A stretch of DNA of 26,936 bases from a virus. The position numbers were made by a program, and so were the translations under genes. The notes under the pieces were generated by a model that was not told where the DNA came from, searched no databases, and worked only from the letters and a program-made list of their open reading frames with translations. Below, piece after piece: positions 2,881 through 26,573 of this stretch. The stretch is taken from the IMG/VR virus record IMGVR_UViG_3300038701_003104, positions 1 through 26,936 of that record; one strand, 5' to 3'. The first letter of the stretch is position 1. Each line of letters starts with the position of its first letter.

Positions 2881-3129
2881 ATGACTTTAAAAAGTAAACT
2901 AGATCATCACATTATCAGGCTAATAAATAAATACGAGGACTTAGGTAAATTTAACTCTCGTAAAGAGCTATATGAAACGATGAATATCAAAAGACAGAAT
3001 ATTCATAGAATTAAGATGGGCTATGCTCATTTTACCTTTGAGCATATATATCGACTACAAAAATTTTTAGATATCGAGCCAGAAGAACTATTTGCAATTA
3101 ATTCAAAGGAATTTACATCAACAATTTAA
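2881..3129 (+). CDS. small HTH-like protein in the repressor operon (82 aa)
   Basis: It starts two bases after the repressor stop. The segment FNSRKELYETMNIKRQNIHR (about residues 24-43), followed by IKMGYAHFTFEHIYRLQKFL, has the helix-turn-helix pattern and C-terminal helix layout of XRE-type DNA-binding domains, although the sequence is divergent. It may be an accessory regulator of the lysis/lysogeny choice. Family assignment rests on the pattern, not on a diagnostic motif. Confidence 0.75.
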   Translation: MTLKSKLDHHIIRLINKYEDLGKFNSRKELYETMNIKRQNIHRIKMGYAHFTFEHIYRLQKFLDIEPEELFAINSKEFTSTI

Positions 3130-3140
3130 ATAATCATTTT

Positions 3141-3677
3141 ATGAAAAAACTAATAGTATTGATTTTTATATTAAATACCATTCATGGTTTTAGTCAAGAT
3201 AAATTCAAGTATGGGGAGAAGGGATTGTTACCTGAGTATCTTGTCAACGAATTAAAGTCTAAATCTAAAGAAGAACTTTTTAAACAAACGAAAAAATGGG
3301 TAATTGAAACTTTCAAAAACCCTGATGAAGTTTTAAAAGCAACGATAGAAAATGAAATGATCAGAATTGAAGGATATAAGGAAAATTTGGTTTCTATTAA
3401 TAGTCTTGGCATGAAAACGACTTATCCAGGTACATACACAATAGAGATAGAGTTTAAAGAAGGTAAATTTAAATTTGAGCCAATATCATTACAATACATA
3501 TCTCAAGGTAACCGTGATATACCTCTTCATGATGGATCCTGGGCTTTTAAAAATAACGGTAAAGTAAGAGGGGTTTGGAAAGATTATCCAAGCGCAATAG
3601 AAAGTATTTTTCAAGAATTAAATGATGACTTATTAAGTTTTTTAAAATCAAATGATAATGAAAAAGATGACTGGTAA
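3141..3677 (+). CDS. predicted secreted protein in the repressor operon (178 aa)
   Basis: The N-terminus MKKLIVLIFILNTIHGFSQ is a clear Sec signal peptide with a likely cut after about residue 19. No lipobox cysteine is seen. The mature part is polar and mixed alpha/beta (for example YPGTYTIEIEFKEGKFKFEP) and has a conserved-looking SWAFKNNGKVRGVWKDYPSA region. It starts 11 bases after the HTH gene and lies before attP, so it is probably transcribed with the repressor and expressed in lysogens. Secretion to the periplasm or surface suggests a lysogenic-conversion or superinfection role, but this is inference from position. No family is recognised with certainty. Confidence 0.8.
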   Translation: MKKLIVLIFILNTIHGFSQDKFKYGEKGLLPEYLVNELKSKSKEELFKQTKKWVIETFKNPDEVLKATIENEMIRIEGYKENLVSINSLGMKTTYPGTYTIEIEFKEGKFKFEPISLQYISQGNRDIPLHDGSWAFKNNGKVRGVWKDYPSAIESIFQELNDDLLSFLKSNDNEKDDW

Positions 3678-12090: not shown

Positions 12091-12107
12091 GTAATATAAT
12101 ATATTAC
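12091..12107. promoter_or_regulatory. late-block palindrome, copy 1 (exact)
   Basis: GTAATATAATATATTAC is a perfect 8-1-8 palindrome, placed two bases before the ATG of the protease/scaffold gene. A second palindrome, TTACTTT-TTT-AAAGTAA (12104-12120), overlaps it. Because the site touches the start codon, it could act as operator, promoter core or mRNA hairpin. Confidence 0.75.
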
Positions 12108-12179
12108 TTTTTTAAAGTAACAAAGTTAATTGCAAAGGCTACTTTAAAATGGTTAAGCTTTTTTGACTAAATTTGAGTT

Positions 12180-12452
12180 ATGGTAACATTTGCTTTGATA
12201 ATACTTTTTGGTTGTACAGCTTATGTCTTAATAAAGCTGTGGATAAAAGCTGTTAACTGGATTTTTGGGTACACACCAAAAGGCAAAAATCCTTATATCG
12301 ATGCTCATAAGAGAAAGTTTAAAAATGATAGGGATTATGAAGAATACTTGAAATGGCTTAATACCGACCAAAGGAGAGATATTCCATTTGAAAAGGTTAA
12401 GACCAAGAGAGATGCTGAATTTGAGAAGGCCTTTAAAGACACAATTAAATGA
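12180..12452 (+). CDS. small membrane protein of a plus-strand cassette (90 aa)
   Basis: One N-terminal membrane helix (VTFALIILFGCTAYVLIKLW, about residues 2-24) is followed by a highly charged, probably cytoplasmic tail (RKFKNDRDYEEYLKWLNTDQ, then FEKAFKDTIK). It is transcribed against all surrounding late genes. A TAAATTTG box (TAnnTTTG) lies just upstream of the ATG, which would give a very short leader. Its stop overlaps the next ATG (ATGA), so the two genes are coupled. The layout fits an independently expressed moron-type gene. Function unknown. Confidence 0.72.
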   Translation: MVTFALIILFGCTAYVLIKLWIKAVNWIFGYTPKGKNPYIDAHKRKFKNDRDYEEYLKWLNTDQRRDIPFEKVKTKRDAEFEKAFKDTIK

Positions 12453-12544
12453 GTTTTTTGGAAATCATAGGAATTGTCGTTGCTCTTGTAATTGGAGCCT
12501 TTATTGTAGATGCAGTTTATAGGAATATGAGGAAGCCGTTTTGA
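12449..12544 (+). CDS. 31-residue single-pass membrane peptide
   Basis: The frame MSFLEIIGIVVALVIGAFIV followed by DAVYRNMRKPF is almost entirely one membrane helix with a short basic tail. It overlaps the 90-residue gene by four bases and ends just before a nested hairpin that probably terminates the transcript. It is likely co-expressed with, and perhaps a partner of, the upstream membrane protein. Confidence 0.6.
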   Translation: MSFLEIIGIVVALVIGAFIVDAVYRNMRKPF

Positions 12545-12720
12545 TAAAAACAGTAAGATTAGTAAGAAATCTTACTGGTACCTTACTGTTTATTTGCATA
12601 TTTCAAAATTGGTATTATCTAAAAACAAAATACCAAAAATGTATTAAATTACTGTATTTCAGTATCTTAATAATACCATTTTACCGACATCGGGAAAATG
12701 GTTGTTCGGGATTTCCGAAT
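12545..12720. other. densely hairpinned non-coding stretch
   Basis: No credible gene. Successive inverted repeats are: AAACAGTAAG/CTTACTGTTT (12548-12557 with 12582-12591) with an inner AGTAAG/CTTACT (12561-12566 with 12571-12576); TTGGTATT/AATACCAA (12609-12616 with 12629-12636), or alternatively TGGTATTAT/ATAATACCA (12610-12618 with 12670-12678); TACTG/CAGTA (12650-12654 with 12660-12664); CCATTTT/AAAATGG (12676-12682 with 12695-12701) with inner CCGA/TCGG; and TTCGG/CCGAA (12705-12709 with 12715-12719). The first probably terminates the plus-strand cassette. Confidence 0.7.
12548..12595 (+). terminator. nested hairpin terminator of the plus-strand cassette
   Basis: A 10-bp outer stem encloses a second 6-bp stem, four bases after the 31-residue gene. 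It is followed by TTTATTT on the plus strand, so it can end the membrane-protein transcript before it runs into the tail genes. Confidence 0.6.
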
Positions 12721-12724
12721 AGCC

Positions 12725-12756
12725 ACAAAAAAAAACGCTCCTTTTGCAAGAGCGTT
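12725..12756 (-). terminator. intrinsic terminator of the small secreted-protein gene
   Basis: AACGCTC (12734-12740) and GAGCGTT (12750-12756) form a 7-bp stem. On the minus strand the stem is followed by a run of T (plus-strand A-run at 12727-12735). It lies about 30 bases beyond the stop at 12789 and separates the tail block from the head block. Confidence 0.85.
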
Positions 12757-12788
12757 TCCAAACTAACTAAATAAAAAATGCTACAAAA

Positions 12789-13112
12789 TTAATTCAAGAT
12801 TTGCCATCCTGGGTCAATATGTAAACTGACCGATTCCGGGTTATCATACAGGCTGTTAATTTCTTTTCTATACAATTTCTTAAACTCTGACCTGATTTTC
12901 CTATACCTGTCCCGCAATCTTTGTTTACGAGTTTTGGGTTTTGGAGTTTGTTCAAAATCAACTTGAAAGTCAACAATATCGAAAGATACTGGTTGAAAAT
13001 CATCTGTGACTTCAATTTTTTGTTTTTGCTCCAGTTCGCCATCTCCTGCGAATGCTGTTGAAGTTGTCATTCCGATCAAAATCAATAAAAAGAGTGATAA
13101 AATATGTTTCAT
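12789..13112 (-). CDS. small predicted secreted protein (107 aa)
   Basis: The N-terminus MKHILSLFLLILIGMTTSTA is a Sec signal peptide with a probable cut at AFA|GDG (about residue 22). The mature part is charged, with KPKTRKQRLRDRYRKIRSEF as a strongly basic helix and an end at DPGWQILN. It forms a unit of its own: the palindrome variant at 13132-13148 upstream and an intrinsic terminator at 12725-12756 downstream. A Sec-exported small protein expressed late might act at the envelope during lysis or block superinfection. No family recognised. Confidence 0.75.
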   Translation of the reverse strand: MKHILSLFLLILIGMTTSTAFAGDGELEQKQKIEVTDDFQPVSFDIVDFQVDFEQTPKPKTRKQRLRDRYRKIRSEFKKLYRKEINSLYDNPESVSLHIDPGWQILN

Positions 13113-13131
13113 GACTGCTAATATAATAAAA

Positions 13132-13148
13132 GTAATATAATATATGAC
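13132..13148. promoter_or_regulatory. late-block palindrome, copy 2 (one mismatch)
   Basis: GTAATATAATATATGAC differs from the exact palindrome at one base. It lies between the stop of the 76-residue gene (overlapping its TAG) and the small secreted-protein gene, 19 bases before that gene's ATG. Confidence 0.7.
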
Positions 13149-13378
13149 TATTTGGATAAATCAGTGACAATTTTTTTGACCGATTGCCAGCTCACCTGAG
13201 GCTTTATTTTTTCAGCAACAATGTAATAAGCATCATACACACCGACACCTTTTTCAATTTCATCTTGATAAAATTCAAATATCTCAATATTTCTTAGCCA
13301 TACTGGATTAACTAAGCCCAGATTGGTCAACTCTTTAATTTGTGATTCTTTTTCTTTCAATCTATCGTATAGCATCAA
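13148..13378 (-). CDS. small conserved-type phage protein (76 aa)
   Basis: Helical protein (MLYDRLKEKESQIKELTNLG, then LVNPVWLRNIEIFEFYQDEI). The end WQSVKKIVTDLSK resembles the recognition helix of a small HTH protein. It overlaps the previous gene by four bases. The arrangement CxxCP protein, small beta protein, small helical protein after the tape measure seems familiar from Bacteroidota phages (memory, not searched). Function unknown. Confidence 0.7.
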   Translation of the reverse strand: MMLYDRLKEKESQIKELTNLGLVNPVWLRNIEIFEFYQDEIEKGVGVYDAYYIVAEKIKPQVSWQSVKKIVTDLSK

Positions 13379-13581
13379 CTATTTTTTTTCAAAATATTCT
13401 TTTCTTTAGAGATTTCAAACTCGTAATGATAAGATTCATTCTCACCGCAGGACAAGGCATAGGATATTGAATTAAGTCTAATGTTTAAGCCAGTAACTAT
13501 TCTTTCATTCTGATCTGTATCAGTTTTTAAATAAACTGTGTCTCCAATATTAAATTTATTCTCTATTAACATCATTACCAT
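13375..13581 (-). CDS. small beta-barrel-like phage protein (68 aa)
   Basis: The sequence FNIGDTVYLKTDTDQNERIV followed by TGLNIRLNSISYALSCGENE shows five short strands with a GDxVYLKTD start, the layout of an SH3-like barrel. Start choice is open between ATG 13581 and ATG 13575; the latter overlaps the upstream stop as TAATG. Probably a small assembly or accessory protein. No function can be given. Confidence 0.7.
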   Translation of the reverse strand: MVMMLIENKFNIGDTVYLKTDTDQNERIVTGLNIRLNSISYALSCGENESYHYEFEISKEKNILKKNS

Positions 13582-13829
13582 TTATTTTTTGGGCAATTAG
13601 AATCTTTTGATCTGACTTTAGTTGACAAAGGACATTTACATATACCACAATAGTATCCTTGTATTTCTGCAAAAGAATAGTCAGGAAGAATTGCGGTATA
13701 AATCCCTTTTTTAGCCTCTGGGCATTCTGAACAAATTTTTGCTCTTTTATTTGCGATTTTATCATCAAGTGGACTTTCCTCAAATAAATACTTTTTCCAT
13801 CCTGTCAATATTTCATTCACTTTACTCAT
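13575..13829 (-). CDS. CxxCP zinc-finger-like small phage protein (84 aa)
   Basis: Cysteines occur in pairs: KICSECPEAKK (CxxC), GYYCGICKCPLSTKVRSK (CxxCxC) and NCPKNKW at the end. The spacing suggests a structural zinc site. The WKKYLFEES start and CP..KxW end are typical of a small protein that recurs in Bacteroidota phages and related elements (recognised by memory). Its ATG overlaps the tape-measure stop by eight bases. Role unknown, possibly virion assembly. Confidence 0.75.
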   Translation of the reverse strand: MSKVNEILTGWKKYLFEESPLDDKIANKRAKICSECPEAKKGIYTAILPDYSFAEIQGYYCGICKCPLSTKVRSKDSNCPKNKW

Positions 13830-16626
13830 GATTTGCTCTGGCCTCTATTTGTGATACTTCGTCGTTGACTCTTCTTATGTCTGATACTGCGACTTGACCG
13901 GGTGGTAAGCTTTTAACTCCTTCCATTACTTGAATACCAATCATTGATGCAAGCTTATCATAATCAATTTTTGAACCTTGATTGATTTCTCTGACCGCTG
14001 AAGATACTCCGGCAATACCGCCAGTATTAAAACGAACGCCACCTCCCGCCTGATTGATTGCTGAAAGTATCGGTTTGAACATTTTAGTTGACTTCGCGTT
14101 GATAACACTTTCACCTTTACTCAATTGCGCTGGTATTGAATCAGATGTTTCGGTTCCTGGTAATGATGGATCATCTAATATTCCGCCAGTAGCCAAACTG
14201 ACCCCGTTAATTTGTGCAACATTTGCCAAACCTTTTGAAATTGCGACACCTGCAGCAACAGCTCCTCTAACCGGTGATGATGGATCCGGAACCGGTAAAA
14301 ACTGAGACAAGTAAGCTTTTTGCGCTGCTAAAAAAGTATCCGCTAAAGCCAATGCAGATATTATTGCCTTGTTTTCGCCAAAAAAAGTATTTGCCAATTG
14401 AGTTAGCTGATTTATCATTTGCCTGTCGGAATCAATCCTGGCAATATTTTTTTGATCATTTATAGCTTGTTGTTTCTTAGCAAACCTTTCATTGATAGAA
14501 GTAACATCAACCCCAAGTCTTTCAGCTTCTTGAACAGCTAATTGTCTTTCTTTTTCTAATTGTAGTCTTTTTCTTTCAAACCTAGCTTCAAACTCAGTGT
14601 TTTCACGTTCAATTTCAAGCTGTTTTTCTAATTCTCGACGTTCAGCTTCAGCTTCTATATTGGCTAACCTATTCTCTTCATTTATAGCATTTATAGCTTG
14701 ATTGTATTCTTGTTGACTTATAACACCTTGTTCAAGTCTTTTAGCCTGAAATTCCCTTTCAACCTCAGCCAATCGATTATTTTTCTCAATAGCATTTTCA
14801 ACTTCTAAATCAATTAAAGCTTTTTTACGCTCTAATTCTTCTTTTGCAATTTCGATTGCGATATCACTTCCAACTTTAGCAAACTCCCTTTTTATGTTGA
14901 GTAGTTCAGTTTGATATTCAGTTTCGCTAAGCTTACCGGCTTTATATTTTTCTTCAAGAATTTCTTTTTCTCTTTCTGATACCTCTTTTGCAACATCCAA
15001 TTCTTCTTGTCTGGACTTCGCTTTATCTCCCTGTTGAGCAATAAACAAATCAAGCTCTTCATTTAGTTGATTAATTTTAATTTCAAAAGCTTCATTCTCT
15101 TTTGCGATTCTTGCATCGATATCCTTTTGCATTTGAGCTTCTGCTTGCTGTCTTATTGTGTTAAGCTTATTGGTCTGCGTAGTTTGTAATTCCAAGGCCT
15201 GTTCTTCGAATTGGTATCTTCTTGCAATTAGTTCGTTGAGTTCTTTTTCATCCTCTCTTGATGTATCATTCGCAATCTGTTTTAGTTTCAGTTGTTCAAT
15301 TTCTTTATCTAAAATAGCCTGTTGTTCTTCCAGTAATTCTTTAGATAATTCAACAGATCGCTTTGCTGCAAGCTCTCTTTCTTTTAATGTTTTAGTTTGG
15401 TCTTCAGCAATTTTATTTTGCTCTTTAATCTCAGCTCTTATTCTTGCTTCATTAATTATTAAAGCATTTTGACCCTTTTCAATTTCTTCTTGAAGTTTTT
15501 GTATTTCCTGACCTCTTTGAATTGCCTCTTTAAAGAAATTATTCGCTTTATTTCCAAGTTCCGCGACTTTGCCTGTTACATCTTCAACACCAGTTGCTGC
15601 TTGAAGTATATCATCTCCAATTCCATCAAAATCAAAATTTATCACTTTATTGATGATGTTTGCTAATGCCTGAAATCTATTAATAAGATTGTTTTTAATA
15701 AGATTTGCTAAATCTGATATCAACTTCTTAGGGTTAGAAAAAGCTTCAAATATCCCTTTGCCAAAATCCTGAACCACACCGAAAAGCTGAGCAAATATTT
15801 CTTTCATTGGTGTTAAAACCCGATTGACTTTATCAATTCCTTCCTGCGTAGATGCTAAATAAGCGACTAATGATCCAATTAAAACAACTATGGCACCGAT
15901 GCCAGTTCCAATAAGTGCCAATCTCAACAATTTCAATCCGGCAACAGTGCCATTATTGGCTTTTAAATAAAGCCTTTGAGCTGTTGTCATGTCCTCTGTT
16001 GCAGTAGTATTGGCTTTATATTCGTTTCGGATGTTGTTAAAGTCGCCTTTGACTTGATTTAATACCGGGCTAAAAGACTGAAATATGTTTGTGATTTCTG
16101 TTATTTGACCTTGAAAAAGTCCATTTTCCTGAATAGCCTCATTGATCGCATCTTTATAGCCCCCTATTCCGATTTTTTGCTGTTCTAATTCTGAAACATT
16201 TTCTTTAATGAAAGCATTGTTCTTATCAATTTGTTTGTTGATGATGTCTCGATTTTTACGACCTTCCTCAGTTGCAAGATTTAATTCATTTCGAATTGCT
16301 AATAAGTCTTTATTAGCGTCTCTTGCTGAGTTAATTGATGTAACTTCTTTTTCTAATGTTAGGTTTAAGCGATCTTGAGTTGATAAAAACCTTTCATTTC
16401 CTTCATATAATGACGATAAGGCCTTTTGGTTTTTTCTATATTCAGAAGAAAGGCTTTTGATTCCTGCATCAAGTTTGGCTAACTCTTTTGAGTTGTCACC
16501 ATCTTGTTTTCTCAACTCTTTTCTTTTGTCTCTAAGCTTATCGAGTTCTTTTCTCAGCTCAGCCGACTTTCTAAGTATTTCATCAGTTGAGATATCAAGT
16601 TCTAATATTTTTCTGGCTTCGCTCAT
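13822..16626 (-). CDS. phage tail tape measure protein (934 aa)
   Basis: The first 200 residues are heptad-rich coiled coil. A membrane-like Gly-rich helix lies at about 230-260 (LLRLALIGTGIGAIVVLIGS). Then comes a very long Glu/Lys/Gln-rich coiled coil (about 370-730) and a C-terminal domain with the tape-measure signature region ATGGILDDPSLPG...DSIPAQLSKGESVINA (about 815-850). The protein sets tail length and is probably ejected with DNA; a 934-residue protein implies a long, flexible siphovirus tail. It lies downstream of the tail-tip gene, whereas most siphoviruses encode it upstream. Confidence 0.9.
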   Translation of the reverse strand: MSEARKILELDISTDEILRKSAELRKELDKLRDKRKELRKQDGDNSKELAKLDAGIKSLSSEYRKNQKALSSLYEGNERFLSTQDRLNLTLEKEVTSINSARDANKDLLAIRNELNLATEEGRKNRDIINKQIDKNNAFIKENVSELEQQKIGIGGYKDAINEAIQENGLFQGQITEITNIFQSFSPVLNQVKGDFNNIRNEYKANTTATEDMTTAQRLYLKANNGTVAGLKLLRLALIGTGIGAIVVLIGSLVAYLASTQEGIDKVNRVLTPMKEIFAQLFGVVQDFGKGIFEAFSNPKKLISDLANLIKNNLINRFQALANIINKVINFDFDGIGDDILQAATGVEDVTGKVAELGNKANNFFKEAIQRGQEIQKLQEEIEKGQNALIINEARIRAEIKEQNKIAEDQTKTLKERELAAKRSVELSKELLEEQQAILDKEIEQLKLKQIANDTSREDEKELNELIARRYQFEEQALELQTTQTNKLNTIRQQAEAQMQKDIDARIAKENEAFEIKINQLNEELDLFIAQQGDKAKSRQEELDVAKEVSEREKEILEEKYKAGKLSETEYQTELLNIKREFAKVGSDIAIEIAKEELERKKALIDLEVENAIEKNNRLAEVEREFQAKRLEQGVISQQEYNQAINAINEENRLANIEAEAERRELEKQLEIERENTEFEARFERKRLQLEKERQLAVQEAERLGVDVTSINERFAKKQQAINDQKNIARIDSDRQMINQLTQLANTFFGENKAIISALALADTFLAAQKAYLSQFLPVPDPSSPVRGAVAAGVAISKGLANVAQINGVSLATGGILDDPSLPGTETSDSIPAQLSKGESVINAKSTKMFKPILSAINQAGGGVRFNTGGIAGVSSAVREINQGSKIDYDKLASMIGIQVMEGVKSLPPGQVAVSDIRRVNDEVSQIEARANHE

Positions 16627-16636
16627 AACATATTTT

Positions 16637-16927
16637 TTATCCGAATTTATGTACAGGATTTTGTGGAGTTATTTCATTTTGAAAGTTTATCGGTTCTCTT
16701 GTCATTACATCGACATGATAACCCTCAATGTAAGTAGCTTCTGATATTATATTCTCATTTTCGTCATAAACAGCCGGCTGATCTATTATTTCGCCTATAA
16801 ATACAACAGCAAGTGTATTTTTTTTATAATAAAATCCTTCAAGGCTTGAATTTTTTATAACTCCTTTTTGAACTAAATCATTGATCGCCTCTTGTTTGTC
16901 AGTATATTTTAGCTTGTATTCATTCAT
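16637..16927 (-). CDS. small tail-associated protein (96 aa)
   Basis: Recognisable pattern but no named family: an N-terminal helix (DKQEAINDLVQKGVI), strands with LAVVFIGEIIDQPAVYDENE, then TYIEGYHVDVM and a polar end. Similar short proteins often sit next to tail-fibre genes in phages. It lies two bases after the giant tail gene and ten bases before the tape measure gene. It may be a fibre chaperone or a small tail component. Confidence 0.65.
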   Translation of the reverse strand: MNEYKLKYTDKQEAINDLVQKGVIKNSSLEGFYYKKNTLAVVFIGEIIDQPAVYDENENIISEATYIEGYHVDVMTREPINFQNEITPQNPVHKFG

Positions 16928-16928
16928 T

Positions 16929-19900
16929 TTATAAAGTTGTGAATTCTAATGTGTTTGAAAATCTGGTTATGTTGAAATACTCATCTGCTAGTATGATATT
17001 CATCTCATAGTTTTGTGATGAATTAAGTCCAGATACGATGTTTGTGAAATCCTGTATTTTAACCCATTCCTTTAAGAAGCCGTCCATAAATATCATAATC
17101 CAACCTTGGGTTAATTCTGTACTAAAACTCACTTCAATGCTATTTGCGTTTATTGTAACAGCCGATAAGTCTTCGACATCTTCTGGATATTGATTTTGTA
17201 ATGGATCTGATAGGTCTTTATAGACCACTGATCCGCCGTTATCAACAACATATTGAAGATCTCCTTCAGGTTGACCACTGTTAGATGTTTCATGAAATTT
17301 GTTAGCGACTATTTGCGCACCAATAGTATTTCTTCTGAAGCAATTACTGTAAGTAAAATCCCCACTGCCATCGGGTCCTAAATATGGTAACTCTGTAAAA
17401 CTTACTAATAGCCTAAGAACATGATCAGCTGCACTTGCAAAATTTTGGTCGAATGTTCCTACTTGTGCGTTTGGTGTGTATATGAATCTCGCTTCTGATG
17501 TGTATTGATTATAACACCTTACAAGACTTATCTTTCCGTGTAAGTCAAAAATATAGGTAACATTAGCATCACTAAAATTGCTTTCAAAATTGTAATTGGT
17601 TAAAGCAAAAAAACGAATATTACCATTTACAACTTCGTAATTTTCAAAATCGTTTATTGTTATACCTAAATTCCCACTAAGACTCAATAAGTAATCAACA
17701 AATTCTTGAAGGTTGGTTAAGCTATTACCTAAACCACCGATCCATGTATTATATTTTTTTTGCAGAATATAAGTGTCATCAATAGTAATCTGACCACTAA
17801 CATGAGTTTCAATTTCTTCTTGGCTAAGCAAATGCTTTTTAAAAATCATATTCTTGATTTCTGTTCTATTTTCATCACTTCGGACAGAAAGAACTTTAAA
17901 CCCTGATAGGTTTTGATATTCGAGAGTTTGTAGATTAGAATTAGAATCTTTGTAATGTAGTTCAATGATATTTCTTTTAATCAGTAAAACGATTTGACCA
18001 CTGCCATTAGCTGGAATTTCTACATTGGTCATATTGTCTGAAAGAACTAAAACGCTTTCATACTGTTGCATTGTAATAATGACTGAAAACTCTCCTTCAA
18101 TTTCTGAAATTAAATTCTTTTTTAGTACGTCTTGATTTCTGGTTACGATTGAGCCAGAGGTTGGGATGTAGCTTGTTGATTTTGAACCATATTCAACTTG
18201 CAAGGATGAAGCGTAAATAGTCTTAGTGTTTAAATCACCTGATCTGATTTGAGGAAAAAAAATATTATTATCATTAGGCAGAACACCTGAAAATTCAAAC
18301 TTATTCCATTCTTTTTTTGCTGAAAACAATTCAGAAATAATAGAACCTGACCCAGAAGTTATTGCTAAAATAAAAGTTTCTCCACCATTTTTACCTTTAA
18401 CCCAACATGAAATAGTTACAAGAGAATTTGAATCAATAGGGGTCGCTTTATCAATTCTTGAAAAACTGCTATTAGAAAATATAATCTCAGCAGCATCAAG
18501 CAGACCCCATGGTGAAGTATTTGAAAGTGTATTTAATATAGCCGAATTTTTAGCAGACCATCCATTTTCAAAACTTTTTGAATAAGTAATCAAATTTATC
18601 CTCTGTGGTTCTAAAAGCAAATGAGAACATTCATTCTTTCTGTAGTTGATTCTTGGTGTATCAGCCGCTAAGTCTTGAATTAATAAATCTGAATTTACTC
18701 GCGTTCCTGTGGTAGCGCGTGAAACATCAAACTCAATTAAACCGGTGCCTACATTTACACCGTAAATAATAGTACTGTCAAAAATCTGAGAAAATAGAAT
18801 GATATCGTTATCTATCCAATAGCCTTTTTTGGCAAAACTTATCAAATCCCCTTTAAAGCAATTAAAATTATCTATTGTTGCACTTTTATCTATCACATAA
18901 CCCTGAACCACAGAAATCATTCTTTGAACTACAACACCGTTCCATGTGCCATCTATATCTCTGATTTCTAATAAATGAAATATCGTAGGTTTGCCCTCAA
19001 CAAAATTTGATACTTTATCTATTAAAAAATATGCAGATAGCTGTTTGATATAAATCAATCTTGAGAAATCAAGGTTTTGATAATCAATTTCATTAATAAA
19101 CAGTTCGACGATTCTAAGTTTAGATCGTCTTATAATACTCAAATATTTTTCATAATATTTTGAAAGCAATAAATTCCAGTTTGATTGCTCAAATTCTGCC
19201 TTAAAAAACTTGTTATTATTACCTGTATTTGTAAGCTCTAAACTTCCTATGTTTATGTTTTCAGTAATTTCTTTACTTTTACAGAAATAAAACCTTTTGT
19301 TCAGACCTCTGTAATCAACAGATCCATTATCTTGAACTTGTTTTTGCCAAAGCTTTAAAACATTAAATTGTCCGTAATTTAAAATTTCACTTAAAAAAGC
19401 TTCTGCTGAATAAGTTTTAGATCTAAATGCTGTTTTCTCTTCTTCTAAATTTTCATTGTTGACAAATAAACTTGAATCATTATGATTGTCACCAGAAGTA
19501 TTATATTGATAAGAAAAAATATTATCCTTTGCGTAGTTTTGGTAAACAAATAATGTGTCTAATAATTGGACAAATTTTGACGAAAAATCAATTGAATTTG
19601 TAAAATCTAAAATTTCAGATATAGTTTTAAAAGTAATATTTTTGCCAACACGACTCATGAATGGTGTTAAAGCAAATCTCATCATTATTTCTTTTATGAA
19701 ATCTGTGATTTTGAAATCAATAAAAGCTTCTGAGAATCCAACTGTAAAAGCTGATACTTTTTCAACAGTAGTTTGAAAAACATGATTAACATTATTTTGA
19801 TCAAAAAATGATAAATACTCGCTATCAGTATCTGTTAATATTTCACCATTTGAATCATAAGGATTAGTTAGAACAAATAAAGCAATCGTATCAAATAAAG

Positions 19901-20936
19901 CATTATTTGTAAAAATTACAGAATTATTATTGGCATCAACTGTGTCGATTTCTCCTTCTTCTAAATTTTGAGTTAATGTGTTGTATTTTCTCCATAAAAT
20001 TCTTGTAAATGGTCCAGAAACAACATTATTACTTTGCCTATCCTTTAGGTAGACTTTGCCAGTTATAGTAACTCTTAATGTTCCTGACATTTGGTCTATT
20101 TGAGGTGTAGAAAAATTTTGGTCTATTCCTATGTAGTTTTGATAAGCTGGAGTTCTAGCGTCCGTAAATGGTGTGTCTGCTTCTAAATCATATTCACCGT
20201 AAACAGGCAATAATCTGATAGACCTTCTTTGAGGATTATCAAAAGGTTTAAAGTTAAAATCTGCCGTCTGTTGTGTTAACAACAAGAATTCTGCAGTTTC
20301 TTGACCGATAGGCTTCGGATAAGAAAGCCACAGATCTTTAAAATCTTCACTATCGAAAATTATTCCTTGATATGTCCATCCAAAATGATTAAATATCTGA
20401 TTCCAAATGTATTCAACCTTCGCAAAAGGCACTTGATAATCAATATTAAATAAACTTGAGTAACTATTTAAACCGTTAAAATCTGCTAAAAGATATTTAT
20501 AGTTGTATTGATTGTTCCAAGATTGTATAACATTAGTTATACTTTTAGAATGATTAATTTCGCTTAAATCAATATCATTCAATGTTTTGTTTTGAATTGC
20601 TTTCAGAAAATCAATATAACCATCATAAATGGAAATACTAATTTCATGATTAGAAACCTTATTTATATATGCCAGTCCTTTATCTGTTAAACAAAAACCA
20701 CTTGCAGAAAATATTTTTGCTCTTAATATTATGTATGGCAAATCACTTATTACTCCTGGCTGATCAAGAAGTTCAAAAAATTTATAGTTCTCAGCTGTTT
20801 TATAAATACTTATTGAAGATGTAAAATTTGATTGACGTGATGAGAGTTTGCCAATGGTATTGACTTGAAGTTGTCTTTCAAAATTTTGACTATAAACTTT
20901 GAATAAAAAATCTCCTATGTATATTCGATATTCCAT
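16929..20936 (-). CDS. giant tail-tip/fibre protein with carbohydrate-binding-like module (1335 aa)
   Basis: The N-terminal part (about 1-680) reads as a baseplate/tail-hub-like region with many beta strands. Residues about 775-925 match the phage fibre carbohydrate-binding pattern: RINLITYSKSFENGWSAKNS, then VTISCWVKGK, and finally SLQVEYGSKSTSYIPTSGSI with VTRNQDV. Residues about 930-1040 look LamG-like, and the last about 80 residues resemble a fibronectin type III domain (SAVTINANSIEVSF). The protein therefore probably joins the tail tip to host-surface glycan recognition. The ATG overlaps the stop of the upstream tail gene. Domain limits are by eye. Confidence 0.82.
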   Translation of the reverse strand: MEYRIYIGDFLFKVYSQNFERQLQVNTIGKLSSRQSNFTSSISIYKTAENYKFFELLDQPGVISDLPYIILRAKIFSASGFCLTDKGLAYINKVSNHEISISIYDGYIDFLKAIQNKTLNDIDLSEINHSKSITNVIQSWNNQYNYKYLLADFNGLNSYSSLFNIDYQVPFAKVEYIWNQIFNHFGWTYQGIIFDSEDFKDLWLSYPKPIGQETAEFLLLTQQTADFNFKPFDNPQRRSIRLLPVYGEYDLEADTPFTDARTPAYQNYIGIDQNFSTPQIDQMSGTLRVTITGKVYLKDRQSNNVVSGPFTRILWRKYNTLTQNLEEGEIDTVDANNNSVIFTNNALFDTIALFVLTNPYDSNGEILTDTDSEYLSFFDQNNVNHVFQTTVEKVSAFTVGFSEAFIDFKITDFIKEIMMRFALTPFMSRVGKNITFKTISEILDFTNSIDFSSKFVQLLDTLFVYQNYAKDNIFSYQYNTSGDNHNDSSLFVNNENLEEEKTAFRSKTYSAEAFLSEILNYGQFNVLKLWQKQVQDNGSVDYRGLNKRFYFCKSKEITENINIGSLELTNTGNNNKFFKAEFEQSNWNLLLSKYYEKYLSIIRRSKLRIVELFINEIDYQNLDFSRLIYIKQLSAYFLIDKVSNFVEGKPTIFHLLEIRDIDGTWNGVVVQRMISVVQGYVIDKSATIDNFNCFKGDLISFAKKGYWIDNDIILFSQIFDSTIIYGVNVGTGLIEFDVSRATTGTRVNSDLLIQDLAADTPRINYRKNECSHLLLEPQRINLITYSKSFENGWSAKNSAILNTLSNTSPWGLLDAAEIIFSNSSFSRIDKATPIDSNSLVTISCWVKGKNGGETFILAITSGSGSIISELFSAKKEWNKFEFSGVLPNDNNIFFPQIRSGDLNTKTIYASSLQVEYGSKSTSYIPTSGSIVTRNQDVLKKNLISEIEGEFSVIITMQQYESVLVLSDNMTNVEIPANGSGQIVLLIKRNIIELHYKDSNSNLQTLEYQNLSGFKVLSVRSDENRTEIKNMIFKKHLLSQEEIETHVSGQITIDDTYILQKKYNTWIGGLGNSLTNLQEFVDYLLSLSGNLGITINDFENYEVVNGNIRFFALTNYNFESNFSDANVTYIFDLHGKISLVRCYNQYTSEARFIYTPNAQVGTFDQNFASAADHVLRLLVSFTELPYLGPDGSGDFTYSNCFRRNTIGAQIVANKFHETSNSGQPEGDLQYVVDNGGSVVYKDLSDPLQNQYPEDVEDLSAVTINANSIEVSFSTELTQGWIMIFMDGFLKEWVKIQDFTNIVSGLNSSQNYEMNIILADEYFNITRFSNTLEFTTL

Positions 20937-22084
20937 TAGATTTTTTGAGTGTAATGTTTTGGGATTTTGAATTCAAGTTCAATATCCCATTTCTTTACAT
21001 TGAATTTTTGGTGCTGAAATTCATCTGTTATTAATTCAACTTCAATCCAGTCTTTACTTGTAGTTTGTGTATTTGGTTGACCAGTAAATAAATATATTTT
21101 AGGACTGTCTATTATGTCTGCTAATATTTTTCTATCAAGATAAGTTGTTTTTCTAGCTACAACAGTCATAATCTGGGTTGATTCTTTTCCTATTTGAAGA
21201 ATTGGTGATGAATTTTCTGAGTAATTTTCAAAATCATTGTATAAAGAACCTATATTTTTAGATTCGCTTAATCTTTGATGATTTTCAGAAAAAAGAAAAT
21301 AAGACCAGCCACCTTTTTGATTGAACCACTTGAAGTATTTTCCAAAACAATAGTTTGTTATTCTATGTACTTCTACTATTTTAGGTGGATTAACCTGACC
21401 AGTGTCAGCGTACAAACTTGTAATAGAAGAATTGATTAAATCATTACCTGTTACCGGTGTTGGTTTTAAGGCAAATCTGCCATCATCAATCGTAATTCTA
21501 TAAGCAGATTTAAGTCCGACTTGGTTTGGCTCTATCAATATAGAGTTAGTTGAATCAACATCATCTAAGGAGTTATTTATATGAAAATCATCTCTTTCTC
21601 CTATTACTGTTATTGTGAATGGTAGTCCTTTCCAGTATATGACCTGAAAAGGATGAGCTACATCATAAGTTTTAATATCATTTTCAAATAAGAATAAGTT
21701 TTTAACTCCTTTAAAGGCTTTTAAATTAATTATCCTTTCGTCTATTGAGTTGTCATCAAAAACCACTTGAAATTTAATATCCTTCTGAAAAAAGAAACTA
21801 TTGCTCTTATTAAGAATGAAAGTCTCAACATCTGTCTCATCTACAGCTAAAGAATCACCATCAATTAAGTTATCAGTGACTAAATCATTTTTGATGTGCT
21901 TTTGTAGGTCTATCCAAAAAGTATTGTTACCGGGAATAGGTTGAAGGGTAATATCATTTTCAAAATTTAAAATTTTAGCATGACTTACAGAACCGGAATT
22001 GGTTGAGTTAAATCTTACAATTAAATTTTGAAAGCAAGAATACACTTTACTCTCATCGAAATCATTTAAAATATTTACAGCCAT
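20936..22084 (-). CDS. tail protein, probable distal-tail component (382 aa)
   Basis: A beta-rich, acidic protein with no membrane segment. Motifs such as PFQVIYWKGLPFTITVIGER and GKYFKWFNQKGGWSYFLFSE appear in the middle. The C-terminal region (KDWIEVELITDEFQHQKFNV, then KKWDIELEFKIPK) resembles the strands of distal-tail proteins. It opens the tail block with the exact palindrome one base before its ATG, and its stop overlaps the giant tail-tip gene. A distal-tail role is inferred from position and strand content. Confidence 0.7.
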   Translation of the reverse strand: MAVNILNDFDESKVYSCFQNLIVRFNSTNSGSVSHAKILNFENDITLQPIPGNNTFWIDLQKHIKNDLVTDNLIDGDSLAVDETDVETFILNKSNSFFFQKDIKFQVVFDDNSIDERIINLKAFKGVKNLFLFENDIKTYDVAHPFQVIYWKGLPFTITVIGERDDFHINNSLDDVDSTNSILIEPNQVGLKSAYRITIDDGRFALKPTPVTGNDLINSSITSLYADTGQVNPPKIVEVHRITNYCFGKYFKWFNQKGGWSYFLFSENHQRLSESKNIGSLYNDFENYSENSSPILQIGKESTQIMTVVARKTTYLDRKILADIIDSPKIYLFTGQPNTQTTSKDWIEVELITDEFQHQKFNVKKWDIELEFKIPKHYTQKI

Positions 22085-22085
22085 T

Positions 22086-22102
22086 GTAATATATTATATT
22101 AC
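22086..22102. promoter_or_regulatory. late-block palindrome, copy 3 (exact)
   Basis: GTAATATATTATATTAC, the same 17-mer as copy 1 read on the other strand. It lies one base before the ATG of the 382-residue tail gene (22084), which leaves no room for an ordinary ribosome-binding site. Confidence 0.75.
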
Positions 22103-22118
22103 TTAATTAGTAAAAAAA

Positions 22119-22601
22119 TTATGCTACTTCCTGAAAAACATTTGATATCTCACTTCTAAATCTTTCTAAATACACTAAGCCTAATTCATTTATGATTTTA
22201 TCCACATCATTTGCCAGAAAATCATTAACTACCGATGACACCACTTGTCCTTTATTAAATTGGTTTGGCACTTTTATTCCTTCGTTTGCTATTCTGTGGG
22301 CAATAGCAAAGGACAAACTTTGCTTATTGTCTCTGAAAAATTGAGGAAGAGTTGATTTAACCTCAATCCATTCCTTTATTATTGGTGCAAGTTTTTTATA
22401 ATCTCCTCCTGGACCACGTCCGCGTTCCATATATTCTGAATGCTTGGCACCAAACAAAACAAATCCATGATCTGACGCTTCTCCTTCGAGCTTTTCCTCA
22501 TATTTACCAGAAGCCCGAAGCCCTAACTCATCATATTTTTTGATAAGCTTTTCTCTTAACTGTTCAAGATATTTTGTGAATATGGATCGTTCTTGGGTCA
22601 T
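22119..22601 (-). CDS. HK97-gp10-like neck/tail-completion protein (160 aa)
   Basis: The pattern YMERGRGPGG with upstream HGFVLFGAKHSE, and IIKEWIEVK downstream, fits the HK97 gp10/minor-tail family that joins head and tail. A second helical half (AIAHRIANEGIKVPNQFNKG) follows. It closes the connector block and is followed by palindrome copy 3. Similarity is by eye. Confidence 0.7.
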   Translation of the reverse strand: MTQERSIFTKYLEQLREKLIKKYDELGLRASGKYEEKLEGEASDHGFVLFGAKHSEYMERGRGPGGDYKKLAPIIKEWIEVKSTLPQFFRDNKQSLSFAIAHRIANEGIKVPNQFNKGQVVSSVVNDFLANDVDKIINELGLVYLERFRSEISNVFQEVA

Positions 22602-22617
22602 ATGTTATATTATTTAT

Positions 22618-22686
22618 TTATTTTTGTATCGGCTGTGGATTTAAAATGTAGTAGCTTCGGCTATGGTTTTTATATGTAGCAGCCAT
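22618..22686 (-). CDS. possible 22-residue peptide
   Basis: MAATYKNHSRSYYILNPQPI followed by QK fits neatly between two genes (six bases after one stop, 16 before the next ATG). The rest of this 91-base gap holds no other signal except a weak, degraded look-alike of the palindrome near 22603-22615. It may be only a chance frame. Confidence 0.3.
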   Translation of the reverse strand: MAATYKNHSRSYYILNPQPIQK

Positions 22687-22692
22687 TTTTTA

Positions 22693-23175
22693 TTAATAGC
22701 TTCTCCAAATTATTTCATTTTCTCTAACATAATCTCTAAGCTCTTCCATATCATTTACTCTTTTGTGAATTAGCTCAGGAACGGATTCAGGGTTATTCAA
22801 AAAGGCTGGTTTTTCGAACCAAACAGAACCAAAAGTATTTACCAAAACTTTAGTATTTTTGAATATTTTAAAAAAGATACACGAAGGGTTTCCAAAATCT
22901 CTTAAAATTCCATAAGTCTCGTTATCCAACCAATCAATATCTTTTTTAGTAGAAAGCTGACCCCAACCATCTTTCAATAGATTCCTACCTCCAATTGTCG
23001 GTCTAAAATGAATTGATAAATTATTATTTTCTTTAGTGTACTGATAATTGAATGAGTGTTTGAATCCAGATATTTGCTGCTGCATAAATTCTTCAAGCAT
23101 TGTCTTTTCTATCAAAGTCACTGCCTCTATTTCTAAAAATAGCTTTTTGTTTTTTTGTTTAAATTCTGCTTTCAT
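22693..23175 (-). CDS. connector-block hypothetical protein (160 aa)
   Basis: Mixed alpha/beta protein starting MKAEFKQKNKKLFLEIEAVT, with a central TIGGRNLLKDGWGQLSTKKD region and helical end (RVNDMEELRDYVRENEIIWR). It overlaps the gene upstream by four bases. Position between terminase and tail suggests head-tail joining, but I do not recognise the family. Confidence 0.65.
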   Translation of the reverse strand: MKAEFKQKNKKLFLEIEAVTLIEKTMLEEFMQQQISGFKHSFNYQYTKENNNLSIHFRPTIGGRNLLKDGWGQLSTKKDIDWLDNETYGILRDFGNPSCIFFKIFKNTKVLVNTFGSVWFEKPAFLNNPESVPELIHKRVNDMEELRDYVRENEIIWRSY

Positions 23176-23639
23176 ACCGGTTCTATATTTAATTGGTAAT
23201 AATTTGGGTCTATTGTTAGTGATACCTTGACCTTAAGGCCGTCTAAATTAGTGTCAAGTAAATTTTCAACTTCGCTTGTTTTGTAAGAGTTCAAAGTCAA
23301 TCCATCAGCACAATGCGCTATTTTATCTTCAATTAATTGATTTACCTCAGACTTTAGATTTTTTATGTGAGTTTCATATTTAAATTCGTAATCTGGGTCA
23401 GTTATTTTAGATTTGACAGCAAGGATGAATTCAAAGTCATAGGTGACTTTATTGGCTGAATTATGCTCATTGAATGTTGTATTATCGTCAACATAAAGCA
23501 AAAGTAAATGCTTCTTTCTCTGGTCAAATGAAAGCTGATGATCGCATTCAAAATCGTTAAGGTTTTGCCAGTGCATTCGACCATAAGTAAAAGTATAATC
23601 GAGTAATGTAGAGTGATATTTTAATAATTCAACTATCAT
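23172..23639 (-). CDS. connector/tail-completion-like protein (155 aa)
   Basis: I use ATG 23639, which overlaps the stop of the 30-residue gene; a TTG nine bases upstream is less likely. The protein has alternating strands and helices (YDFEFILAVKSKITDPDYEF, VKVSLTIDPNYYQLNIEPV), as in phage tail-terminator-type proteins. Function inferred from position only. Confidence 0.65.
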   Translation of the reverse strand: MIVELLKYHSTLLDYTFTYGRMHWQNLNDFECDHQLSFDQRKKHLLLLYVDDNTTFNEHNSANKVTYDFEFILAVKSKITDPDYEFKYETHIKNLKSEVNQLIEDKIAHCADGLTLNSYKTSEVENLLDTNLDGLKVKVSLTIDPNYYQLNIEPV

Positions 23640-23728
23640 AAAACCCAATCAAATATTATTGTGTAAACACCAATTAAGCTTGTCACAAACACAAAAACGC
23701 CCCAAATTAAATTGATTTTTTTTCTCAT
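23636..23728 (-). CDS. 30-residue single-pass membrane peptide
   Basis: The frame MRKKINLIWGVFVFVTSLIG followed by VYTIIFDWVL is a basic start and one membrane helix. It is coupled at both ends by four-base ATGA overlaps with its neighbours (23725-23728 and 23636-23639), which strongly supports it as a real gene. Confidence 0.7.
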   Translation of the reverse strand: MRKKINLIWGVFVFVTSLIGVYTIIFDWVL

Positions 23729-24279
23729 GACTTATAAAGTTTCTTCTGATATTGATTTTGAGTACTTATGTAGCATATTTCAAGAAAAACTTCACTATAC
23801 GGCAAATCCAAATAAAACTTTTCTTTGCTCTTATCACCTCCAGTAAGCATACGTATAGTATTGTATTCTCCGAATTCCTGAAAGTTTTCAATACCGGCAC
23901 TAATTTCTTTTTGAGTTGGTTTTGACGAAAGCTTTTCTTCTTCAGCTTTGACAATAGCTTTCATTTCTTCTACAACATATTTGTAAGCTGATAGGGCGTT
24001 AAAAAGACTAAGGCTACTTATGTCCTGAATGTCTAAATTATAAAGCAATTCAATTACTTTTTCATACTCCGTATTCTCGATGAGACCTTTAAGTTGAATC
24101 ATTTCAGAATACTTAATATCCCATAGACTTGAAAACTTAGGCTCTACTTTATGTCGTCCTAATCTTATTACTCTATTTGACTTTAAAAAATTTTCAGTGA
24201 TGTATAAAACATCTTCCTGCTTTTCTTTTGAAAGCTTTTGAAAATCTTTGACTTTAGTATTTAAAAGTGTTCTTTTCAT
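23725..24279 (-). CDS. hypothetical protein after terminase (184 aa)
   Basis: A helical protein rich in Lys/Glu (KDFQKLSKEKQEDVLYITEN, MVEEM-type helices, then YNTIRMLTGGDKSKEKFYLD). No membrane segment or motif. It opens the connector block, 12 bases downstream of palindrome copy 4. It may be a chaperone or head-tail adaptor; no family recognised. Confidence 0.7.
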   Translation of the reverse strand: MKRTLLNTKVKDFQKLSKEKQEDVLYITENFLKSNRVIRLGRHKVEPKFSSLWDIKYSEMIQLKGLIENTEYEKVIELLYNLDIQDISSLSLFNALSAYKYVVEEMKAIVKAEEEKLSSKPTQKEISAGIENFQEFGEYNTIRMLTGGDKSKEKFYLDLPYSEVFLEICYISTQNQYQKKLYKS

Positions 24280-24291
24280 TCTTATACAAAA

Positions 24292-24308
24292 GTAATATAT
24301 TATATGAC
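24292..24308. promoter_or_regulatory. late-block palindrome, copy 4 (one mismatch)
   Basis: GTAATATATTATATGAC, with the same T-to-G change as copy 2. On the minus strand it continues into TACTTTTG, a TAnnTTTG-type -7 box, 12 bases from the ATG of the 184-residue gene. The remaining part of the 57-base gap holds nothing else clear. Confidence 0.75.
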
Positions 24309-24336
24309 TTTTAATAGCTAATGAATTTTATTTAAT

Positions 24337-25650
24337 TTACGTTAGAGCCATTCTGCCTGAACGACTTGATTTACTCCTGAGTTCAAAAATCATTCTCATG
24401 ATACACATATCGCTAAAATCAGGAGAGCGCCCTAAGATTTCTTTTACTTTTTGCTTAGGTGTAATTTTCATTTTACCATCTCGGTCGACATCTTCTTTTT
24501 TAATTTGTTCAAGCTCCTCTATTATGTGATCCTTGTATAAATTATCTTCGATGTAGATTTCACCATCATTTACTTTCTCTCCAAATTTATAAGCACATTG
24601 TGTTTTTAGATTTTGATAATTTTCATTTCTCAAAGCTTTTGAACCATTGTTAAATGGAATGGCACCACGTAAATAACCTCTTAGAAATGTACCCAGGCCA
24701 TCAGCGTCATAAGTAATATGTGATCGTGGCACATTGTAATTATTAGCAATCTCTTTAAGTTTACGTTCAACCTGATCTGCATCAAGTTTCTTGAAAACAA
24801 AAACTTTCTTTAATACCCAACCATGCCATAAGCCTATTACAAATCTATCAGAACCATGAAGCGCAATATCAGCTGTTAGGTATCTTTCTTTTAAGTTTTC
24901 TTCAACGAAATCATTGGTCCATAAATCACTGATGGCTTCAAAGCTCATCACTGCGTTATCATCATCTTCATATTCCCAGTTTCCGTATAAAAGCCTTTGT
25001 TTGTCAACTTTTGACAAACTCATTAATCCTTTCCTGTATTGCTTAGAAATGTAAGGATTGTCCGATAATAACGATTGAATGAATGCTTTTTCACTTTCAA
25101 TAGTGCCTTCTTTGTGAGGTTTATAAAAATCCTGATAAACCCAGTTTTTAGAAGGGTTTCCAACAAGTAATATTTTTTGACATAACCCGAAGTCATCAAG
25201 CCTATATCTAATCCTGGACTTCAATACATTTTTGGCTCGCCTAACTATCTGGGGAGTTTCATCAATAAAAGCATCTGTAATTTCAAGTGAACCAAAAGCG
25301 TCAAAGTTTGGGTCTGAGGGGTACGCAAATAAGTCTTTGAGCATAATTTCAGACCCATTCGCAAATGTGATAAGAGATTGCTGTTGGTGGTATTTAAAAT
25401 GAGTATCTCGTTTAAGACCTTGCATTTTAGCGATTTCAAAGAACGTTTTTAGTGTTGTATCTTTTAAAGCCTTCAGCTTTGAACGTCCAATTAAGCCTCT
25501 TGTTTCAGGATACTTAATTCTATTTTTTAATTGCCAATAACAACCAAGAGCAGACTTACCACCTCCGGCAGCACCACCGAAAAATATTTGCTCGGTTGAC
25601 TTGTCTTCTAACAAATCCAGTGCAATTGTTTGTTTGTGATGAAGTCTCAT
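24337..25650 (-). CDS. terL: terminase large subunit (437 aa)
   Basis: The ATPase domain has Walker A FFGGAAGGGKSALG (residues about 23-36), Walker B DAFIDET (126-132) with the catalytic glutamate in DE, and the coupling motif LLVGNPSKNW (161-170). The RNase H-like nuclease shows acidic residues in YLTADIALHGSD (D261), ITYDADGLG (D315/D317) and, near the end, SPDFSDMC. The enzyme cuts concatemers and drives DNA into the prohead. Its start overlaps the small-subunit stop by four bases. The module follows the palindrome copy at 26557-26573. Confidence 0.95.
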   Translation of the reverse strand: MRLHHKQTIALDLLEDKSTEQIFFGGAAGGGKSALGCYWQLKNRIKYPETRGLIGRSKLKALKDTTLKTFFEIAKMQGLKRDTHFKYHQQQSLITFANGSEIMLKDLFAYPSDPNFDAFGSLEITDAFIDETPQIVRRAKNVLKSRIRYRLDDFGLCQKILLVGNPSKNWVYQDFYKPHKEGTIESEKAFIQSLLSDNPYISKQYRKGLMSLSKVDKQRLLYGNWEYEDDDNAVMSFEAISDLWTNDFVEENLKERYLTADIALHGSDRFVIGLWHGWVLKKVFVFKKLDADQVERKLKEIANNYNVPRSHITYDADGLGTFLRGYLRGAIPFNNGSKALRNENYQNLKTQCAYKFGEKVNDGEIYIEDNLYKDHIIEELEQIKKEDVDRDGKMKITPKQKVKEILGRSPDFSDMCIMRMIFELRSKSSRSGRMALT

Positions 25651-26084
25651 TCATCTTCTATTTGTTCTTCACCTTGCTTAATATATGTCTTTTCTTCCAC
25701 CCATTTCACAGCAAGCGGGTTTTCTTCATCTCCTGATATCTGAACTTTTTTAACTGGTTCTAAATCTTCAAGTTTAATAATCAGCTTTTGAGCGTTTACC
25801 CAGGCATTAAGCCCTTTGGCAGTGGAAAGCTCTTTTTGATTCATTTTCCTACATCTCTCTTGTATTTCAGCAATTTTTGCACTTCTCTTAGCTTCTATGC
25901 TTTCATCGTTTACAGGCTTTAACTTTTCATAAGCCCACTTTTTGTAATTTCTTGCTTGTCTTAATGTAAGTCCCCAGTTCTGCTTTATCATTTCAAGTAT
26001 CTTCATATCTGAATAACCATGGATAATAGCTTCAGCAATTTGAAGTACTCGTTTTTCTTTCTCAATTTTACTGGCTCTGGCCAT
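25647..26084 (-). CDS. terS: terminase small subunit-like (145 aa)
   Basis: The N-terminal HTH region (VLQIAEAIIHGYSDMKILEM, then LTLRQARNYKKWAYEKLKP) is followed by a central helical oligomerisation part and an acidic tail. Position directly before terL with a four-base overlap is the standard arrangement. It would bind the packaging start site. The HTH is clear; the small-subunit name rests on context. Confidence 0.85.
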   Translation of the reverse strand: MARASKIEKEKRVLQIAEAIIHGYSDMKILEMIKQNWGLTLRQARNYKKWAYEKLKPVNDESIEAKRSAKIAEIQERCRKMNQKELSTAKGLNAWVNAQKLIIKLEDLEPVKKVQISGDEENPLAVKWVEEKTYIKQGEEQIEDE

Positions 26085-26092
26085 AGGTGCAA

Positions 26093-26329
26093 CTATTTCT
26101 TAGGAAACATTCTTTTTATTACATTGATGTGCCTATTAAGTTGATCAACTCTGTCTCTTAGCTTAATAGATTCAAATTCTCTAAGCCTTTTCATGTCTGG
26201 GTCAGAGTCTTGAAATGGTTTATCTTCATAGGCTTTAAGACTTTTCAAATTCATGTCCAGCTCCTCTTGCAAATAATCAATAATTGTGTCTTTCACTTCA
26301 ATAGTAATTTCATAAGGTGTAACTTTCAT
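26093..26329 (-). CDS. small helical protein before terminase (78 aa)
   Basis: Charged, probably coiled-coil protein (MKVTPYEITIEVKDTIIDYL, then ELDMNLKSLKAYEDK). It lies eight bases before terS in the same block. No recognised family; it may help terminase or be a regulatory leader gene. Confidence 0.6.
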   Translation of the reverse strand: MKVTPYEITIEVKDTIIDYLQEELDMNLKSLKAYEDKPFQDSDPDMKRLREFESIKLRDRVDQLNRHINVIKRMFPKK

Positions 26330-26374
26330 ATCTCTCGGTTTTTGTCAAAAATATCAATTTGACTTTAAACCGGT

Positions 26375-26404
26375 ACGGGAGCAATTAAGCTCCCGTTGTT
26401 TTTT
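26375..26404 (+). terminator. plus-oriented intrinsic terminator-like hairpin
   Basis: ACGGGAGC (26375-26382) and GCTCCCGT (26389-26396) form a perfect 8-bp stem with loop AATTAA, followed by TGTTTTTT on the plus strand. No plus-strand gene lies upstream, so it would stop antisense transcription into the terminase block; on the minus strand it has no T-run. It may alternatively be a packaging-site structure. Confidence 0.6.
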
Positions 26405-26430
26405 CAGTGCAATACCATCTATAAAGTTTG

Positions 26431-26532
26431 TTGTGGGGACTGGACTCGAACCAGCACAATCATGTTTTCTTAGCGTTTCAAATGATTAACAAAAACGTAA
26501 ACGTCGGCGTCTACCAATTCCGCCACCCCACT
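26431..26532 (-). tRNA. tRNA-Leu-like gene with abnormal middle
   Basis: Read on the minus strand, AGTGGGG-TG-GCGGAATTGGTAGACGC is the 5' acceptor and D-arm of a leucine-type tRNA. GCTGG-TTCGAGT-CCAGT is a good T-arm, and CCCCACA is the 3' acceptor. Between them the anticodon/variable region is about 48 bases, longer than the usual 30 or so, and I cannot fold a normal 5-bp anticodon stem with a 7-base loop. Stretches CGTTT/AAACG and AATCAT/ATGATT can pair. The first acceptor pair would be A-A. It is therefore a divergent or degenerate tRNA, and no anticodon is claimed. Confidence 0.55.
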
Positions 26533-26556
26533 GTTTACACAAAAGTAATCAAAAAA

Positions 26557-26573
26557 GTAATATAATATATTAC
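26557..26573. promoter_or_regulatory. late-block palindrome, copy 5 (exact)
   Basis: GTAATATAATATATTAC, identical to copy 1. It lies upstream (minus sense) of the tRNA-like gene and the terminase block. A TACTTTTG box follows on the minus strand just before the tRNA start. Confidence 0.75.

Follow-up and report, generated by a model that had tools for sequence, protein, structure and literature searches.

Repeated palindromes in front of the late genes

The window analysed here is a whole IMG/VR contig of 26,936 bases, whose left edge falls within the early block and whose terminase is, among named phages, nearest to that of Flavobacterium phage 11b (46%). A 17-bp palindrome, GTAATATA-W-TATATTAC, was found in five copies, three of them exact and two carrying the same T-to-G change (GTAATATAATATATGAC and GTAATATATTATATGAC). 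When up to three mismatches were allowed, there were six matches, compared with 0.31 expected in shuffles (largest shuffle count 3). A preliminary description of this DNA had reported the five copies, each heading a late block, and all of them were recovered at the same coordinates; the sixth site, degenerate and of doubtful function, was not listed there. The sites, all putative operators, are as follows.

12091-12107, minus strand: operator copy 1, exact, before the head gene 10883-12088 (head/lysis block)
13132-13148, minus strand: operator copy 2, one base change, before the gene of a small secreted protein (12789-13112)
22086-22102, minus strand: operator copy 3, exact, before the tail gene 20936-22084
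24292-24308, minus strand: operator copy 4, one base change, before ORF 23725-24279 (connector/tail-completion block)
26557-26573, minus strand: operator copy 5, exact, before a tRNA-like element, terS, and terL
22597-22613, minus strand: degenerate sixth site GTCATATGTTATATTAT, three mismatches, over the start codon of ORF 22119-22601

Two copies stand close before an ATG, as described previously, with gaps of 2 and 1 bases (ATG at 12088 and 22084, respectively), and copy 2 overlaps the end of ORF 13148-13378. The tRNA previously placed in the terminase block is a borderline case: the element at 26431-26532 (minus strand) reaches 29.0 bits with the Rfam tRNA model, which equals the gathering score, while ARAGORN predicted none. 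It immediately follows the -7 box of operator 5. A small membrane-protein gene (12180-12452, plus strand) is located on the opposite strand between late blocks and is conserved across the group.

Conservation of the site in related phages

Relatives were gathered by portal and capsid protein searches; a search of viral contigs with the tail protein 20936-22084 returned no relative. Contig L036, with 80% nucleotide identity over the longest stretch, retains a pair of sites close to where copies 1 and 2 lie; in L038 (59% portal identity), an exact copy immediately precedes the homologous head gene. Furthermore, GTAATA-N5-TATTAC occurs in four to six copies in each of seven further phages or prophages, namely six in a F. 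sedimenticola prophage (G007), six in G016 (where all have GTAATAA arms), six in G088, and four each in G017, G018, G020, and G219. Two exact and two one-off sites were found in G009. A blind search for recurrent palindromes, given no motif, returned the same site in the window, G007, G016, G017, G018, and G020 and, when extended, in G088 and G219.

Sites in the relatives mostly precede late genes, that is, the head gene, g13378, the terminase/g24279 junction, the small secreted protein, and the packaging block. Counterparts to copy 1 occupy the same place in L036, L038, G007, G016, G017, G018, G020, G009, G088, and G006, and in none of the mapped relatives does copy 3 have a counterpart at its position. 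The counterpart of copy 4 lies approximately 150-170 nt before the homologue of 23725-24279, inside an unrelated terL; the window has a terminase of another kind, and its site lies shortly before g24279, with a promoter box. G007, G016, G018, and G088 have an additional site at the start of a middle block. The terL-internal site is itself a conserved putative operator lacking a TAnnTTTG box (G007 26237, G016 22060, G018 53620, G088 28575, and G219 19965, all in joined-stretch coordinates). The small secreted protein (12789-13112, minus strand, in the window) has its own late operator in G018, G009, and G020 as well.

The reported lack of copies in the early region holds within the window, which by itself does not allow such an absence to be judged because the contig stops partway through the early block; in the complete relatives G007, G016, and G088, likewise, neither the early nor the immunity region contained GTAATA-N5-TATTAC. 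A host regulon was considered and rejected as unlikely, because the variant site GTAACA-N5-TGTTAC, present three times in the 5.9-Mb genome of F. hungaricum, is confined to the prophage (G006; three of three), where it occupies corresponding places. Six of the 11 relaxed matches in the G007 genome lie inside the prophage, and the genome-wide count for G009, prophage sites aside, is at control level. The suggestion of a late regulon that is specific to the phage and has its own reader is thus supported by a site that is conserved among relatives, mostly before late genes, and concentrated in prophages relative to the host chromosome.

Position of the sites relative to host promoter elements

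The motif TAnnTTTG at -12 to -5 is the -7 element recognised by flavobacterial sigma-A (PMC9723704). Between -22 and +27 relative to the start of the site, 35 of 51 sites have an exact box on the sense strand, compared with one of 51 on the antisense strand and 2.3% of random positions, the latter drawn from whole genomes, so that intergenic DNA would be somewhat richer in boxes. The 16 sites with no exact box nearby include two of the five in the window and the terL-internal sites. Box starts recur in a few registers relative to the site: -10 (4 sites), +14 (6), +17 (11), and +26 (9). Given these fixed registers and the location of the -7 element, the sites cover positions of about -38 to +17, with copy 1 of the window further downstream. 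Exact boxes accompany copies 1, 4, and 5 in the window.

12121-12128, minus strand: -7 box TAACTTTG, 21 nt upstream of operator 1
24287-24294, minus strand: -7 box TACTTTTG, overlapping operator 4 (register +14)
26540-26547, minus strand: -7 box TACTTTTG, downstream of operator 5 (register +26)

Copies 2 and 3 have one-mismatch boxes only: TACTTTTA at +14 for copy 2, and TAATTTTT upstream of copy 3, where nothing closer to the consensus was found. Most relatives have a TAnnTTTG box near the place of 12121-12128, and register +26 is also seen at the packaging-block sites of G017, G020, G009, and G219. Because the sites overlap or abut -7 boxes at a few fixed offsets, their geometry fits promoter occlusion, as would be predicted for a repressor operator and not for an activator site or an RNA hairpin.

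A second, imperfect inverted repeat lies upstream of the head promoter (12151-12170, minus strand), and one is found upstream of the head promoter in L038, L039, L041-L044, L048, L050, L053-L058, and L061 as well. Its arms vary in a matched fashion among phages (e.g., TAGGTTG-N6-CAACCTA, TTAGGAA-N6-TTCCTAA, and GGTCAA-N6-TTGACC), and it occurs with or without the late operator. Where both were found, it ends about 19-22 nt, mostly 21 nt, upstream of the TAnnTTTG box of the head gene, and so constant a distance would be appropriate for an activator site near -43. A comparison with the immunity region, made in case the repeat was a CI operator, returned only low-complexity matches as shared words.

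A small HTH protein as candidate reader

Four genes in the left part of the window bear on the question of which protein reads the site.

1689-2063, minus strand: LuxR-type HTH protein with a GerE domain; homologue only in G014
2192-2878, plus strand: S24-type CI repressor (Peptidase_S24, HTH_3; phrog_4, transcriptional repressor), first gene of the lysogeny operon
2881-3129, plus strand: candidate reader, 82-aa Cro/C1-type HTH protein (Pfam HTH_26), directly behind cI
3141-3677, plus strand: secreted protein of the lysogeny operon (phrog_4002)

The product of 2881-3129 matched Pfam HTH_26 at 24.6 bits (cut-off 22) and phrog_638, a transcriptional regulator, with an E-value of 1.2e-8, and its sequence carries a Cro/C1-type (XRE) HTH domain. 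Its AlphaFold model (mean pLDDT 87.8) has the five-helix fold of lambda-repressor-like proteins. The best structural neighbours of this model (VIA) are restriction controller proteins and phage repressors, among them C.Esp1396I (Z 8.3) and lambda repressor (1lmb, Z 6.7). These two share the HTH fold of the predicted reader and have different biological roles, and fold alone shows no function. Helix 3, the recognition helix, covers approximately residues 38-46 and starts with RQN; Q39 and N40 therefore lie at the helix start, and the model suggests that they may contact bases.

We compared nine site-bearing with five site-lacking records. Wherever the immunity region of a site-bearing phage was included (seven phages), a family of 81-89-aa Cro/C1-type HTH proteins was present; only one of the site-lacking relatives compared, some of which may lack the immunity region by truncation, had it. 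Homologues were later found in G088 and G219, with a closer subset of the HTH alignment, and in G009, each with GTAATA sites in the phage or genome. The protein of the window is very divergent, with 17-34% identity to the homologues of relatives. Members of the family sit with an S24-type CI in the lysogeny operon. This operon regularly carries a secreted protein (phrog_4002) or a lipoprotein in addition, possibly for superinfection exclusion; homologues of 3141-3677 are found in the same operon of G007, G016, G017, G018, and G088. According to this distribution, the small HTH protein 2881-3129 appears to be the best candidate reader of the late site.

A phage-encoded late activator is an improbable reader, with a small chance of being right. 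Sites that head late blocks are what such a protein would bind, and in register +26 the site extends from about -38 to -22, near a possible polymerase contact. However, in registers -10, -7, and -21 the site follows the -7 box, a location from which no simple activator works. Activation would require a single geometry, which the registers do not share, and an activator could not act from within the early transcribed region. The candidate reader, moreover, belongs to the lysogeny operon. The LuxR-type protein, previously proposed to read the sites, is excluded by its distribution: among 13 phages compared, its gene was found only in the window and in G014, and the latter has no site.

Covariation of recognition helix and site

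In the window, G007, G016, G017, G018, G020, G088, G219, and G009, a recognition helix with K/R-Q-N/S goes with GTAATA sites. The helix reads KQT in the F. hungaricum prophage (G006), which has GTAACA, and KQV in G232, which has four copies of GTAAAT-N5-ATTTAC. In G014 it reads KGN; this phage has no site and groups with the GTAATA phages on the tree. The DNA of the G009 and G006 prophages shows 72-85% identity where the two match, and the HTH proteins show 72% identity. Their helices, VLKQNLTRIK in G009 and ILKQTLTKIK in G006, differ by an N-to-T change right after Q, and at three shared operators both arms differ, with GTAATA in G009 and GTAACA in G006 (T to C in one arm, A to G in the other). 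The G009 homologue, encoded on a different contig of that draft genome, was sought once the pattern was known; its helix reads KQN, as the GTAATA sites of G009 predict. G232 is a more distant case: its portal and other structural proteins have no blastp match to the group of the window, the tape measure excepted, and three of its four sites lie just before late genes.

The helix rule is incomplete, since homologues with EQT, PQN, and some with RQT had no recurrent site in searches for exact 6-base arms or GTAA-N9-TTAC. One RQT phage, G234, has three mixed GTAAYA sites, not all of them at structural genes. As sites and HTH protein are inherited together, their co-occurrence is not fully independent, and the strongest evidence for the reader lies in the few specificity changes and the one loss (G014). 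Across the genomes compared, the site recurs, is conserved, sits at promoters, and covaries with this one small HTH family.

The same comparison bears on the CI (S24) repressor itself, which shares the operon and could in principle serve scattered operators, as a single repressor does in phage P1 (PMC8546580). Because the CI recognition helices differ between phages with the same site, we consider CI distinctly unlikely as the reader: among GTAATA phages they read LRTVQNW in the window, LRTVQSW in G007, RDTIINY in G020, and KGNLSSY in G017, whereas the small HTH protein keeps K/R-Q-N/S in these phages. Furthermore, the inverted repeat found in the immunity region of the window (TACGCAATATTATGCGTA) is a different one, and no late-type site occurs there.

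Two readings that do without a transcriptional regulator fare worse. That the palindromes act as mRNA hairpins controlling translation, an idea raised by the two copies that abut an ATG and by the 7-bp stem that can form, is very improbable in general. In 28 of the 36 placements counted, the site begins ahead of the -7 box and would therefore not be transcribed from that promoter; the stem is all A-U except for the end pair (-2.0 kcal/mol alone), and one of the two leaders folds no better than shuffles (z -0.28). A role in partition, packaging, or recombination can hardly be credited: some relatives encode ParB-like proteins, but the sites lie at promoters in fixed registers, and the large ParB-like genes (559 aa in G016) are absent from some site-bearing phages, for which reason that protein was rejected as a reader.

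A proposed second repressor for the late genes

We propose that the palindromes are probably operators for late-gene repression in temperate phages of Flavobacterium and relatives, read by the small Cro/C1-type repressor. The late promoters would be ordinary host sigma-A promoters with TAnnTTTG at -7. In the lysogen, the 82-aa protein (2881-3129), made together with CI from one operon, would bind the 17-bp sites as a dimer and block RNA polymerase at every late promoter. Upon induction, the lysogeny operon would stop, loss of the small repressor or its titration by replication would follow, and the late blocks would then open together. From sequence comparison we infer that the protein binds, dimerises, and represses in lysogens, and in what order events would follow upon induction. 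A further-reaching view, in which two repressors divide the labour (CI on early promoters and the small Cro-like protein on late ones), timing follows from loss or titration, and specificity of protein and site has switched together more than once, has about an even chance of being correct. With a second repressor acting directly on late promoters, the late genes would need no dedicated activator or antiterminator.

We know of no established late-gene control for Flavobacterium phages, and a literature search, whose coverage left out most subscription journals, returned no description of such control or of such a system.

Several copies of one operator at lytic-gene promoters, as found here, are also the mark of systems like those of P1 C1 and SPbeta MrpR. 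The C1 repressor of phage P1 has 22 dispersed 17-bp operators, which are asymmetric (ATTGCTCTAATAAATTT), and reaches the late genes via the activator Lpa (PMC8546580). The likeness lies in the many copies of one operator across lytic genes and in a single prophage repressor; unlike in P1, the sites described here are palindromic and lie directly on late promoters, and their reader appears to be separate from CI. In Bacillus phage SPbeta, MrpR (YopR), a prophage master repressor with a tyrosine-recombinase fold, binds the 15-bp SPBRE, a repeated element of phage promoter regions that was recognised in silico first and shown to bind MrpR later (PMC10516654). The present site is likewise a repeated element in phage promoter regions recognised in silico first, but its candidate reader differs from MrpR in being a Cro/C1-type HTH protein of approximately 82 aa that accompanies a normal CI. 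The stoperators of cluster A mycobacteriophages are 13-14 bp long, lack dyad symmetry, share one orientation, and number 20-30 sites per genome, mostly away from promoters (PMC6550527). There, as here, the specificities of repressor and scattered sites diverge together between related phages. The sites of the present group are nonetheless not stoperators, being 17-bp palindromes, three to six per phage, mostly on promoters (35 of 51 on or beside -7 boxes). What appears to set this group apart from known scattered-operator systems is that the site is palindromic and located mostly at late sigma-A promoters, and that CI is accompanied by a second small repressor.

These results provide Flavobacterium phages of this family with a concrete operator, promoter positions, and a named candidate for the reader. 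Furthermore, the natural N-to-T change in the reader, together with the T-to-C change in three operators of a closely related prophage pair, makes the code directly testable with two proteins and two oligonucleotides (GTAATATAATATATTAC and GTAACAATTATTGTTAC).
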